Shown: positions 39,018 to 64,000 of the stretch, piece by piece
Layout: every line of letters begins with the position of its first letter
How positions within the stretch are numbered: the first letter of the stretch is position 1
The notes under the pieces: model-generated
Seen by the model: only the letters and a program-made list of their open reading frames with translations
Databases searched by the model: none
Told to the model about the DNA's origin: nothing
Program-made: the position numbers and the translations under genes
Origin: Actinomycetospora cinnamomea
GTDB lineage: Bacteria > Actinomycetota > Actinomycetes > Mycobacteriales > Pseudonocardiaceae
Assembly: GCF_003096675.1 (NCBI RefSeq)
Contig: NZ_QEKW01000001.1
Location: forward strand, 620,001-684,000
Length of the DNA: 64,000 nucleotides
Reading direction: 5' to 3'

Positions 39018-39182
39018 GGAATCGGGGTCCTCTCGCCTCGTGGTCGCCGGGTCCCCGCGGCCGATGCCCGACGGGGTGAACCGGAACCTGGTCTGCGGGC
39101 CATTCTCGCAGGACCGCCCGCTGGTCACGTCAACCACCTCGGGGTCGCGGATGTTCCCGCGCCCCGACCCTCGCTCGGTCGC

Positions 39183-51669: not shown

Positions 51670-51744
51670 GCCCCCGTAGCTCAGGGGATAGAGCACCGCC
51701 CTCCGGAGGCGGGAGCGCAGGTTCGAATCCTGCCGGGGGCACCA
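51670..51744 (+). tRNA. tRNA-Arg(CCG), CCA encoded
   Basis: Acceptor stem GCCCCCG/CGGGGGC, D-arm AGCTCAGGGGATAGAGC, anticodon stem CCGCC/GGCGG with loop CTCCGGA (anticodon CCG, reads CGG), T-loop GGTTCGAATCC, then A73 and CCA. Confidence 0.97.
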
Positions 51745-54984: not shown

Positions 54985-55449
54985 TCAGCGACAACACGTG
55001 CCGCCGGCATCGGCGGCCCCGCTCTCGCACGCGGTCGCGCACGCCGATGTCGTCTGCCCGTCGGGATCGGCCGGCGAATCATCGGTGACGGCGTAGTACT
55101 CCCACCAGCCGGTGGGCACGTCCGGAGCGGTGACGAAGACCTTGTCCTGCACCGCGTGACAACAGACGTCCTGCTCGGCCGGCGTCGCGTCCAGACCGGC
55201 GTCGCGGAACCGGGTCAGCGCCGCCGTGACCTCCTCGGGGGTCTCAGCCTCGACCCCCAGGTGGTTGAGGCGCTCCCCCTCCCCCGGCTTCTCGATCAGC
55301 ACGAGCTTGAGCGGCGGGTCCTCGACGGCGAAGTTCGCGTAGCCCTCGCGCTGCTTGTGCGGCGGCACGCCGAACAGCCTGGTGTAGAAGGCGGTTGCGG
55401 CCGCGAGGTCGGTGACGTTGAGCGCGAGCTGGACGCGGGTGGTGGGCAT
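54985..55449 (-). CDS. arsI: ArsI/CadI-type organoarsenical C-As lyase
   Basis: 154 residues, ATG start. VOC fold with MPTTRVQLALNVTDL and AFYTRLFGVPP; vicinal Cys96-Cys97 in AEQDVCCHAVQDKVF are at the positions of the trivalent-arsenic site of ArsI, and Fe ligands are likely His7-equivalent Gln/His62-region and Glu115-region (WWEYY). A Cys-rich tail (CATACESG, CCR) adds four thiols. Oxygenase cleaving methylarsenite. Name rests on the CC motif; older annotation is cadmium-induced CadI. Confidence 0.85.
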   Translation of the reverse strand: MPTTRVQLALNVTDLAAATAFYTRLFGVPPHKQREGYANFAVEDPPLKLVLIEKPGEGERLNHLGVEAETPEEVTAALTRFRDAGLDATPAEQDVCCHAVQDKVFVTAPDVPTGWWEYYAVTDDSPADPDGQTTSACATACESGAADAGGTCCR

Positions 55450-60477: not shown

Positions 60478-60950
60478 GACCGTTCCACCATCTGCGCGTA
60501 GGCGGTGAGCAGCGCGACCCACCCGCCGCCGCCGTGCTCGATGGCACCGTGGACACCCTCGCCGCCGACCAGGCGCTCGAAGTGGCGCTGCTCGACCTCG
60601 ACGGTGGTCTGCTCGGGTCCGTCGGCGTGGAAGCGGACCTCGATCTCGCTGGCGTGGGCCGGGTCGGGGTCGAACCGCCAGTCGCCGCCGATCTGCCAGG
60701 TGAACACCACCCGCTCCGGGGGCTCCCAGGCGAGCACCCGGCCCCAGTCGCACTCGCTGCCGTCGACCCCGCGCTCGAACCACCGCCCGCCATGGTGGGG
60801 TTCGAGGACGACGTCGGCGACCTCGGCCGCCCCGATGTGGTACTGGCGCGGCCACCAGGCACCGAAGTGGCCTGTGAACAGCTCGAACGCGCGGTCACGC
60901 CCGATGTTGACGGTGGTCTTGCCCTCGATCGCCGGGATCGGTGTGGTCAT
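60474..60950 (-). CDS. SRPBCC/AHSA1-like protein
   Basis: 158 residues, ATG at 60950, overlapping the end of the ArsR gene by 56 bases. The helix-grip fold is shown by VNIGRDRAFELFTGHFGAWW and GGRWFERG, VFTWQIGG. ArsR plus SRPBCC pairs are common in actinobacteria; ligand unknown. Confidence 0.88.
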   Translation of the reverse strand: MTTPIPAIEGKTTVNIGRDRAFELFTGHFGAWWPRQYHIGAAEVADVVLEPHHGGRWFERGVDGSECDWGRVLAWEPPERVVFTWQIGGDWRFDPDPAHASEIEVRFHADGPEQTTVEVEQRHFERLVGGEGVHGAIEHGGGGWVALLTAYAQMVERS

Positions 60951-61293
60951 GGCTGCCCCCTGCGGACTGGTGGGTGTGCTCGTCGGCGACGGCTTGCTCG
61001 GCGAACTTGTGGAAGTCCGCCAGGGCGTGCTCCCAGACACCGTCCAGCCACGACCGCAGCGCGGCGACGCCGTGAGGGTCGAGGCGGTAGATGCGGCGCG
61101 TGCCCTCGGCGTGCGAGACGACGAGACCGCCGTCCTTGAGCGCCTTGAGGTGCTGGGAGACCGCCGGCCGGCTGATCGGGAGCTGCTCGGCGAGCTCGCC
61201 GACCGAGCTGGGCCGGCGCGCCAGCGTCTCGAAGATCGCACGGCGCATGGGGTCGCCCAGCAACCCCAGCCCGGCGTCTCGGTAAGCTGACAC
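60895..61293 (-). CDS. ArsR-family repressor
   Basis: 132 residues, GTG start at 61293. Winged helix with PMRRAIFETLARRPSSVGEL and RPAVSQHLKALKDGGLV. No metal-binding Cys pair in the recognition helix, so not a canonical arsenic sensor. A His-rich tail (HTHQSAGGSHDHTD) is unusual and could bind metal. Confidence 0.92.
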   Translation of the reverse strand: MSAYRDAGLGLLGDPMRRAIFETLARRPSSVGELAEQLPISRPAVSQHLKALKDGGLVVSHAEGTRRIYRLDPHGVAALRSWLDGVWEHALADFHKFAEQAVADEHTHQSAGGSHDHTDPGDRGQDHRQHRA

Positions 61294-61356: not shown

Positions 61357-62130
61357 TCAGCCGGGCAGCCGCGCGACGAACGCGTAGCCGCGGACGTCGA
61401 ACGTGCGGGCGTTGGCCTCCCCCTCGGCCCCGCCGAAGGTGTCCCACTCCGGTCCGATCTCGACGTCGACGAAACCGGTCTGCTCGAGCATGTCCTGCCA
61501 GCCCTCACGGGGCAGCCCGCCCGCGATTCAACCGGTCCACAGGTCGATGTCGCGCCTCGCCTCCTCGGGCACCGGGCGTCCGTTGGCGATGTCGGCGAAC
61601 TGCAGGCGTCCGCCGGGCCGCAGGACGCGGCGGATCTCCTGGAGCACGGCCGCCTTGTCGGCGCACAGGTTGATGACGCCGTTGGAGATCACCACGTCGG
61701 CCCAGTCGTCGGGCACGGGCAGGTCCTCGGCGAGGCCCGCACGGAACTCGACGTGCCCGAGCCCCAGCGACGCGACGGTCGCGCGCGCCCGGTCGAGCAT
61801 CTCCTCGGTCATGTCCACGCCCACCACGCGGCCCTCGGGACCGACCTGGTTCGCAGCGACGACGCTGTCGAAGCCGCCACCGCTGCCGACGTCCACGACG
61901 GTCTCGCCGCGACCGAGGGGGCCGGGCGCGAAGGGATTGCCGACCCCGGCGAACGACTCCACCACGGCCTCGGGCAGGGGGTCGACGGTCTCGGCGGGAT
62001 AGTCGAGCCGCTCGGCGAGCGACCGCCCGGTGTGGAAGTGGAAGGCCCCTTGGGGCTGGGTCGCCACCTCCCGGTACTTGGCGCGGACCTCGTCCCGCAG
62101 CACGCCGGGATCCACCAACAGGTCACCCAT
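61357..62130 (-). CDS. Selenocysteine-containing ArsM/AS3MT-like methyltransferase (MduA-like)
   Basis: 257 residues if the in-frame TGA at 61528-61530 is read as selenocysteine (Sec201); conventional stop at 61357-61359. ATG at 62130 with GAGGGA upstream. Residues 75-190 are a class I methyltransferase: VVDVGSGGGFDSVVAA, VVGVDMTEEMLDRA, VISNGVINLCADKAAVL, VLRPGGRLQFADI. The TGA falls in DLWTG-U-IAGGLPREGW, aligned with the arsenic-binding Cys of AS3MT/ArsM (LWGECLGGAL). After it GWQDMLEQTGFVDVEIGPE and TFDVRGYAFVARLPG continue normally for 56 codons. I recall a (seleno)protein family called MduA with this architecture; name not verified. Substrate unknown. Confidence 0.85.
61495..61515 (-). 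promoter_or_regulatory. Candidate bacterial SECIS hairpin
   Basis: In the mRNA, starting 13 bases after the UGA, CUGC pairs with GCAG and CCC with GGG, with a CUG bulge on the 3' side and a GUGA apical loop 20-23 bases after the UGA. Position, stem and a G first in the loop agree with bacterial SECIS rules. A competing hairpin nearer the UGA (GGGC/GCCC, loop GGGCU) also exists. Confidence 0.55.
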
Positions 62131-62259: not shown

Positions 62260-62940
62260 TCATGCGGCCGCCGTCTCCACGGGGAGCCCGGCGAGGGCCC
62301 AGTCGGCCCAGCCGCCGGGCAGCAGACGTGCGTCGCGGCCCGCCGCGCGCAGCAGCCGCGCGGCCTCGGGTGCGTAGACGCAGTAGGGCCCGCGGCAGTA
62401 GGCCACGATCTGCGCGTCGGGGGGCAGGTCGTCGATGCGGGCGGCGAGCTCGTCGAGCGGCATCGAGCGCGCCCGGGGGATGTGGCCGGCGTCGTACTCG
62501 GCCCTGGGGCGCACGTCGAGGACCACGGTGGCGCCGTCGCGCAGGCGGGTGGCGAGCTCGTCGCGGTCGATCGCCTCCAACCCGGCGGTGTCGCCGAGGT
62601 AGGCCCGGACGGCGCGTTCGGCGCCGGCCGCGCGGGTGTTCGCGACCCTGGTGAGCGTGGCCAGCAGGTCGAGCACGTCAGGGCCGGCGAGCCGGTAGTA
62701 CACGCGGTTGCCCTCGCGGCGCGTCACGACGAGCCCGGCCTCGCGCAGGGCGCGCAGCTGCGCCGAGGTGTTGCCGACCGTGGCCGCGGCGACCGTCGCG
62801 AGGTCCTCGACACTGCGCTCGGCCTGGGCGAGCAGATCGAGCAGCTGCAGCCGCAGTGGGTTGCCCAGCACCTGCCCGACGCGGGCGAACTCGCCGTACA
62901 TCGCGAGCTTGTCGGCGGTGCCGCCGCCTGCCGTCTCCAT
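62260..62940 (-). CDS. ArsR regulator fused to rhodanese
   Basis: 226 residues from the ATG at 62940 (an upstream TTG adds five). Residues 10-100: ArsR helix-turn-helix (GNPLRLQLLDLLAQAERSVE, NTSAQLRALREAGLVVTRRE). Residues 115-220: rhodanese with VVLDVRPRAEYDAGHIPRA and active-site loop YCRGPYCVYAPEA. Probably senses reactive sulfur through the rhodanese Cys and controls the divergent ETHE1-rhodanese gene. Confidence 0.93.
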   Translation of the reverse strand: METAGGGTADKLAMYGEFARVGQVLGNPLRLQLLDLLAQAERSVEDLATVAAATVGNTSAQLRALREAGLVVTRREGNRVYYRLAGPDVLDLLATLTRVANTRAAGAERAVRAYLGDTAGLEAIDRDELATRLRDGATVVLDVRPRAEYDAGHIPRARSMPLDELAARIDDLPPDAQIVAYCRGPYCVYAPEAARLLRAAGRDARLLPGGWADWALAGLPVETAAA

Positions 62941-62993
62941 GGCACTACCGTACAACTCTACAAATCTTTTGAACAGTGTGTCAGAGTGGCGAG
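62941..62993. promoter_or_regulatory. AT-rich divergent operator/promoter
   Basis: A short AT-rich stretch in an otherwise very GC-rich window, with CAAA-TCT-TTTG (62961-62971) as an inverted repeat between the ArsR-rhodanese and ETHE1-rhodanese genes. Likely binding site of the ArsR-rhodanese protein. Confidence 0.4.
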
Positions 62994-64000
62994 GTGGAAC
63001 CGATCGCGGTGGTCGACGAGGGCCTCGGCAACAGCAGCTACATGCTCGACCTCGGCGACGGTCGGGCAGCGGTCATCGACCCGGCGCGCGACCCGCGCCC
63101 CTACTCCCGCCACGCCCGACGACGCGGGCTGGGCGTCGCCTACGCGGTGGAGACCCACGTGCACGCCGACTTCGTCACCGGCACCCGCGAGCTCGCCGCG
63201 GACGGCGCGGAGATCGTGGCCGCAGCCGGCGCGGAGCTCCGCTATCCCCACCGCGGTGTCCGGGACGGGGACCGGGTCGATCTCGGCGGGCTGGTGCTGG
63301 AGGTCTTCGCGACCCCGGGGCACACCCCGGCGCACGTGGCGTGGCTGTTGCGTGACGGCGAGGCCCCCCTCGGGGTGTTCACCGGCGGCGCCCTGGGGGT
63401 CGGCGGGATGGCCCGCACCGACCTGGCCGGGCGGGAGCGCACCGAGGAACTCGCCCGGGCCGCGTACCGGTCGATCCACGATCGGCTGCTGGCCCTGCCC
63501 GACGAGCTGCCCGTGTGGCCGACCCACGGGGCGGGCTCGTTCTGCTCGACCGACGCCGGAGGTGAGCGCGCGAGCACCATCGGCGCGGAGAAGGACCACA
63601 ACCCGTTGCTCACCGGGGACCCCGACGAGGACACCTTCGTCGCCCGGCTGACCGCCGGGTTCGGGTCCTACCCCGCCTACTTCGACCGCCTCCCGACCGA
63701 GAACCAGGCCGGCCCGCGCGTCCTCGGCAGGCCGTGGCCGGCGCTGCCCCTGCCCGACCTCGACGTCAACGCCGTGCAGGACCTGCTGGCCCGCGGGGCG
63801 CAGGTCGTCGACGCTCGCCCGATCGACCGCTTCGCCCGCGGACACCTGCCCGGGGCGATCTCCGACGAGCTGCGCGGGCAGTTCGGGACCTGGCTGGGCT
63901 GGGTCGTCGACCCGACCCGCCCCGTCGTGCTCGTCGTCGACGACGACCAGGACCTCGACGAGCTGGTCCGCCAGGCCCTCACCGTCGGCGTCGAGGACCT
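62994..64000 (+). CDS. ETHE1-like persulfide dioxygenase fused to rhodanese (3' end cut by window edge)
   Basis: 335 codons visible from the GTG at 62994; the stop lies beyond the window. Metallo-beta-lactamase domain 1-240: ETHVHADFVTG (T-H-x-H-x-D), ATPGHTPAHVAWL and the later PTHGAGSFC are iron-binding motifs of persulfide dioxygenases. A rhodanese domain begins at about 258 (DLLARGAQVVDARPIDRFA) and is still open at the edge. It oxidises persulfide to sulfite; the rhodanese would feed or transfer the sulfane sulfur. Confidence 0.92.
   Translation, partial: MEPIAVVDEGLGNSSYMLDLGDGRAAVIDPARDPRPYSRHARRRGLGVAYAVETHVHADFVTGTRELAADGAEIVAAAGAELRYPHRGVRDGDRVDLGGLVLEVFATPGHTPAHVAWLLRDGEAPLGVFTGGALGVGGMARTDLAGRERTEELARAAYRSIHDRLLALPDELPVWPTHGAGSFCSTDAGGERASTIGAEKDHNPLLTGDPDEDTFVARLTAGFGSYPAYFDRLPTENQAGPRVLGRPWPALPLPDLDVNAVQDLLARGAQVVDARPIDRFARGHLPGAISDELRGQFGTWLGWVVDPTRPVVLVVDDDQDLDELVRQALTVGVED

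Follow-up and report, generated by a model that had tools for sequence, protein, structure and literature searches.

A predicted selenoprotein methyltransferase of the ArsM fold with a lone conserved cysteine/selenocysteine site in Actinomycetospora cinnamomea

Selenocysteine (Sec) forms of arsenite methyltransferase, carrying the motif UxxG, are already known in print. The review PMC13188914 lists such a protein, of NF008823 type with a single Sec, citing Fomenko et al. 2007; PMC9312934 also has it, with the same citation, and an ocean survey counted eight Sec sequences of arsenite methyltransferase (PMC2398784). The chemistry of the cysteine forms is described in PMC3877260: CmArsM needs C72, C174 and C224 to act on arsenite and C174 and C224 to act on methylarsenite, its C174A and C224A mutants are inactive on both, human AS3MT likewise depends on C156 and C206 in both steps, and dimethylarsenite binds a single cysteine. 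The protein treated here, very probably a Sec form as well, stands alone, and its alignment shows glycine at the second arsenic-ligand position.

The gene lies near one end of a 64,000-nucleotide stretch of A. cinnamomea DNA, here called the window:

61357 to 62130, minus strand: gene for a predicted selenoprotein methyltransferase of 257 residues with Sec201, terminal stop TGA
61528 to 61530, minus strand: in-frame TGA at codon 201, the putative selenocysteine codon; the same TGA occurs in 41 of 44 loci
61497 to 61516, minus strand: SECIS-like hairpin of 7 bp with one bulged U and a 5-nt loop, CGUGA, starting 18 nt after the TGA

A sequence-only reading of the window had described 200 codons, a TGA, and 56 further in-frame codons running to a stop, and our re-reading of the minus strand gives the same frame: ATG at 62130, 200 codons, TGA, 56 codons, and a terminal TGA at 61359-61357, with no other stop or frameshift in frame between start and end. 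Relatives terminate at the same place with TAA, TAG or TGA; by that comparison the final TGA is an ordinary stop, and the idea of another Sec there was rejected. The encoded protein belongs to the class I methyltransferases (Pfam Methyltransf_31, E 2.5e-31) and is ArsM-like by NCBIfam, Pfam, PDB sequences and predicted fold. Its nearest PDB sequences by phmmer are ArsM/AS3MT, and the predicted fold (mean pLDDT 92.1) has ArsM or AS3MT for all 13 of its best PDB matches. phmmer pairs residue 201 with Cys224 of CmArsM (the cysteine in LYGECLGGAL; query number + 23) and Gly151 with Cys174. The proposal that the TGA stands in place of an arsenic-binding cysteine thus holds, with the residue-by-residue alignment made to CmArsM and the human equivalent, Cys206, taken from PMC3877260.

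Compared with CmArsM and human AS3MT, then, the window protein shares the fold and one arsenic-binding chalcogen position (C224/C206), and differs in having glycine at the C174/C156 position, no cysteine column of the C72/C61 type, and Sec for Cys. It resembles the selenoprotein arsenite methyltransferase in fold family and in Sec motif (U-I-A-G here), and differs from the reported Sec-ArsM in the glycine at the second ligand position, although some of the reported sequences may belong to the same subfamily. Curated families fit it only in part. Against NF008823 it scores 221.2 bits where the cut-off is 263. The best family match is NF041537 (ArsM/AhpD; ArsM_AhpD_UU), at 246.2 bits over residues 11-225 including the Sec site; this falls short of the cut-off of 510 and covers only profile positions 13-227 of 345, the window protein lacking the AhpD domain and the further Sec. 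Scores against NF047649 (MTase/UXPK-star) and NF041536 (ArsM/DUF2284) are 222 and 214, with cut-offs of 460 and 575. These three NCBIfam selenoprotein models have a second domain or a tail, whereas the window protein has no second domain, contains one Sec and ends at residue 257. It lies below the curated cut-off in each of the best 25 of 47 NCBIfam families, plain ArsM included.

The TGA is conserved across a wide range of relatives. Among 44 loci with at least 50% identity, codon 201 is TGA in 41 and TGC in three (L107, L110, L111); the window is one of the 44 and some genomes appear twice, so that the TGA loci correspond by count to about 36 genomes, and they present 36 distinct site contexts. 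In all 41 TGA loci the match extends to residue 253 or beyond, which answers the question, raised by the sequence-only reading, whether relatives keep homologous residues after the TGA: the alignments show that they do. A scan of genome contigs returned 26 relatives. Nine are 50-97% identical over nearly the full length, and every one has TGA at the codon; they come from Actinomycetospora, Alphaproteobacteria, Pseudomonadales, Nitriliruptoraceae, Pseudonocardiaceae, an unclassified bacterium and SAR324. Another 15, at 40-48% identity, have TGC or TGT at the site; of the last two, one is a fragment that stops short of the site (L048) and the other has an alignment that slips there (L047). L053 (over residues 44-225) and L056 (over 55-225), both with TGC, reach 50% over only part of the protein and stand outside the 44-locus list. 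The nearest named relative, from A. lemnae in the same genus, is 97% identical with the same TGA; beyond the TGA the window and this sister genome differ in three codons (two silent, one replacing), too few for a selection test.

The gene is patchily distributed. At E <= 1e-60 it is found in 7 of 390 genomes of the family, five of them with TGA; in 5 of 24 genomes of the order to which the genome of L025 belongs, all five with TGA; and in 29 of 396 genomes drawn from Actinomycetota, 26 of which have one in-frame TGA (the position was confirmed in 22 of these carriers, the other four lacking a locus). Within the genus the TGA form occurs in 2 of 18 genomes, and the gene is accessory there. In one genome, G309, the methyltransferase gene occurs twice in TGA form, each copy on its own contig (L091, L095). 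Four loci of the same genus (L065, L067, L068, L069), 40-47% identical, have alanine codons (GCG or GCC) at the active-site Cys/Sec position, and eight plasmid records contain relatives at 40.6-44.5% identity.

A hairpin follows the TGA. In an ungapped alignment of the 36 TGA contexts, a 7-bp stem begins 9 nt after the TGA and closes a 5-nt loop (loop at 16 nt) that reads CGUGU or CGUGC in 26 of the 36. Pairing is kept in 94.0% of 252 stem cells. Covariation of the stem is 0.326, compared with 0.151 ± 0.018 in shuffled alignments (0 of 500 shuffles as high), and when the partners are slid it is at most 0.051; two of five covariation measures did not exceed the shuffles (pairs changed on both sides, 3 vs 2.3; further pair types, 6 vs 7.0). 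RNAalifold, given no structure, recovered six of the seven stem pairs. The three TGC orthologues form only 3, 4 and 4 of the seven pairs, i.e. the hairpin is not kept where the codon is Cys. The family hairpin fits the rules for bacterial SECIS elements set out in section 5 of PMC13188914.

In the window's own clade the hairpin is shifted by 2 nt relative to the family, only five of the seven family pairs forming, and RNAfold of a 27-nt piece gives -9.8 kcal/mol. It too fits the published rules, but 85 of 120 random TGAs from the GC-rich window pass them as well, and the 81-nt fold after the window TGA is no better than shuffles (z 0.52); evidence for a SECIS from the single sequence was rejected on these grounds. 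The hairpin of the formate dehydrogenase gene in the same genome also places its loop 18 nt after the Sec codon TGA, with 6 bp and -11.4 kcal/mol.

The sequence-only reading had asked for a search for the sel genes, and selA, selB, selD and tRNA-Sec are all present in the window's genome. selA, selD and tRNA-Sec score above cut-off, and selB does so only as summed pieces (259.4 vs 242.25 bits); by ARAGORN the tRNA is of SeC type, anticodon TCA. Within about 8 kb of one contig lie selA, selB, tRNA-Sec and an fdhA gene with an in-frame TGA. This gene, for a formate dehydrogenase alpha subunit of Sec type, is at L089:12205 on the minus strand of contig C9. Across the 396 phylum genomes, selA (E <= 1e-60) is found in 24 of 26 TGA carriers and 205 of 370 others (Fisher p 1.2e-4, uncorrected for kinship). 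The two exceptions are G511 (98% completeness), with no hit, and G641, with a fragment; G066, another TGA carrier, likewise shows selA only in fragments. In two further sets selA is above cut-off in 29 of 31 and 9 of 10 TGA carriers, with G421/G068 seemingly one genome present in both. selA is common anyway, being above cut-off in 15 of 16 same-genus genomes that lack the methyltransferase gene. It is also present in all three TGC-orthologue genomes; therefore Sec was not lost there for want of selA, and we rejected selA loss as the cause of the three TGC forms.

We conclude that the window gene very probably encodes a selenoprotein (roughly 95%), with UGA201 decoded as selenocysteine, as the sequence-only reading had suggested. 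The TGA shared by 41 of 44 loci and by the sister genome, the covarying hairpin and the full Sec machinery all point this way. By comparison with relatives, SelB and tRNA-Sec would decode the codon, aided by the hairpin just downstream. A pseudogene or sequencing error would make the TGA a plain nonsense mutation, one base away from a Cys or Trp codon, and the product would stop at residue 200. That the identical TGA recurs in several phyla and in about 35 other genomes, that homology runs on to residue 253 or later, and that the hairpin covaries leave this a negligible likelihood, in keeping with the earlier judgement that a pseudogene was the lesser option. Insertion of another amino acid, by readthrough to Trp or Cys or under a reassigned code, is very improbable: homologues do have Cys at the site, and any Cys insertion would fit, yet a full set of Sec genes, including a TCA-anticodon tRNA-Sec, is present in the genome, the covarying hairpin is not kept in the TGC orthologues, and TGA serves as the ordinary terminal stop of the same gene. 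On the selenocysteine reading, a gene that looks truncated becomes readable as a selenoprotein, and tools blind to TGA as a Sec codon would cut genes of this sort at codon 200.

A tree of 62 proteins (quick method, SH-aLRT; rooting insecure, as the ArsM outgroup does not fall on one side of a branch) needs two label changes to account for its 36 Sec rows. The L107/L110/L111 group (support 99) is nested within the Sec rows at forks with support 94 and 99. The history would most simply be one gain of Sec and one return to Cys. If so, the lineage is a natural experiment, in which an ArsM-fold enzyme with a single conserved chalcogen gained selenium and once reverted to sulfur. It permits direct testing of what Sec buys in methyl transfer, and of whether the name "arsenite methyltransferase" fits these proteins.

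In 42 aligned members, Sec and Cys forms alike, position 151 (Cys174 of CmArsM) is always glycine and position 201 always Cys or Sec, whereas 18 more distant ArsM-like rows have cysteine at the C174 position. Position 201 is the only fully conserved Cys/Sec column in the 42 rows. Before residue 83 no column has Cys in at least 3 of the 42 rows that could serve as the N-terminal, C72-type cysteine, and L122 and L123 have no other cysteine at all in the aligned stretch. A fixed pair of Sec201 with Cys156 was dropped, as 156 is Cys in 28 of 42 and otherwise Val, Met, Ile or Ser. Together, the glycine at the C174 position, the missing N-terminal column and the lone Cys/Sec at 201 mark, at the level of the alignment, a lone-chalcogen branch of the ArsM fold, one lineage of which appears to use selenium. 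Two plasmid relatives, from a haloarchaeon (L145) and Chelatococcus (L146), show an SNG...C arrangement in Cys form with glycine at 151.

This alignment weakens the arsenic link made in the sequence-only reading: the partner cysteine of CmArsM and human AS3MT described in PMC3877260 is glycine in 42 of 42. By the published mutants, the window protein should not methylate arsenite, and a classical arsenite cycle appears unlikely. Sec201 would stand at the site of the arsenic ligand Cys224, and because the other arsenic ligands are missing, its selenolate would be the only conserved soft ligand.

The surroundings of the gene bear on its possible function:

62260 to 62955, minus strand: ArsR-type regulator fused to a rhodanese domain, upstream of the methyltransferase gene on the same strand; start codon uncertain
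60895 to 61293, minus strand: ArsR-family regulator, directly downstream of the methyltransferase gene
62976 to 64000, plus strand: metallo-beta-lactamase-fold/rhodanese protein, divergent from the ArsR-rhodanese gene and running past the window end (L090 6977-8365)
57735 to 58625: ArsR regulator fused to an ArsC/low-molecular-weight-phosphatase-type domain, 2.7 kb away; ArsC models below cut-off
54988 to 55434: ArsI/CadI-type enzyme, 172.6 bits vs an NCBIfam cut-off of 116, 5.9 kb from the methyltransferase gene

Genes similar to the ArsR-rhodanese fusion (cluster C2) also adjoin some orthologues. Other genes intervene between the methyltransferase gene and the ArsR-ArsC-like and ArsI-type genes. 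A persulfide role for the metallo-beta-lactamase/rhodanese protein, whose best NCBIfam scores are far below cut-off, is only a guess.

Neighbors of the orthologues were collected within 3 kb of 26 loci, giving 127 proteins. A home-made caller had proposed 145, and this list was revised by hand: short or overlapping ORFs and copies of M2 (below) were dropped, and missed DsrE and sigma ORFs added. The caller missed the window's ArsR-ArsC gene by taking the opposite strand, and the counts are descriptive only, drawn from the best 25 of 145 Pfam and the best 25 of 614 NCBIfam families. Commonest by Pfam are sigma-70 region 4 (11) and region 2 (10), rhodanese (6) and ArsR (6), followed by methyltransferases (5) and DsrE (4); OsmC accounts for two proteins. 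The rhodanese, ArsR, DsrE and OsmC neighbours speak for a sulfur-type setting.

Ten of 29 loci have another ArsM-like methyltransferase, M2, close to the first, with TGA at its own site in seven and TGC in three. The TGA forms are:

L127:5031-5816, M2 with TGA
L129:9694-10482, M2 with TGA
L130:7489-8274, M2 with TGA
L131:5470-6258, M2 with TGA
L134:6964-7752, M2 with TGA
L136:7738-8526, M2 with TGA
L144:2495-3289, M2 with TGA

M2 shares with the window protein a Sec (7 copies) or Cys (3 copies) at the active-site position and, in nine of the ten copies, a glycine at the 151-type position, the remaining copy being unmatched by the pattern; it differs in its N and C termini and forms its own clade (SH-aLRT 100 in the 62-protein tree). 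Two members, L131 and L129, are below the cut-off of every NCBIfam family among the matches listed. Each of the 10 M2 genes has an ORF of the sigma-factor cluster no more than about 320 nt away. No M2 hit was obtained in the 14 kb surrounding the window gene (L090).

What the enzyme methylates is approached here through its residues and neighbors. A non-arsenite enzyme with a lone selenolate strikes us as a near-even prospect. Here Sec201 would hold a soft substrate by one bond and position it for methyl transfer from SAM; candidates would be metalloid or metal species that are dimethylated or monodentate in some other way, or a sulfur compound of persulfide type, and methylation may help to detoxify the substrate within a thiol or sulfur stress response. 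A true arsenic methyltransferase, with the same Sec decoding, would instead have Sec201 and low-molecular thiols hold trivalent arsenic and would yield methylated arsenicals. The nearest solved structures are ArsM/AS3MT, the nearest NCBIfam names include arsenite methyltransferases, an ArsI-type gene above its cut-off lies at 5.9 kb and an ArsR-ArsC-like fusion at 2.7 kb, and the single-cysteine binding said of dimethylarsenite in PMC3877260 would suit one chalcogen. The invariant glycine at the Cys174 equivalent and the lack of an N-terminal Cys column stand against it, as do the inactive C174A and C224A forms of CmArsM reported there, and the commonest 25 of 145 neighbour Pfam families include no arsenic transporter, arsenate reductase or ArsI family (the scan having missed the window's ArsR-ArsC gene). 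We regard this arsenic enzyme as rather doubtful.

Going beyond the lone-selenolate reading itself, we tentatively propose, at somewhat under even odds, that this branch of the ArsM fold left arsenite and methylates sulfane sulfur, selenium or an organometal, and that in part of Actinomycetota it works with M2, beside an ECF-type sigma factor, in a selenium-dependent stress response. The literature searched held no description of the lone-selenolate branch or of the M2 partnership; key selenoprotein papers (Fomenko 2007; Haft and Tolstoy 2025; Haft and Gwadz 2023) were outside that search.

Some further observations concern gene surroundings. (i) The haloarchaeal plasmid has a row, L145:2955-5622, with genes for a carboxymuconolactone decarboxylase family protein, OsmC, a methyltransferase of Gly151/Cys201 type, and a second methyltransferase. 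(ii) The Chelatococcus plasmid relative adjoins cupin, sigma-70 and zf-HC2 genes. (iii) The window also contains an L31-Actinobacteria ribosomal leader at 39042-39090 (minus strand) and a tRNA-Arg (CCG) gene at 51670-51744 (plus strand).
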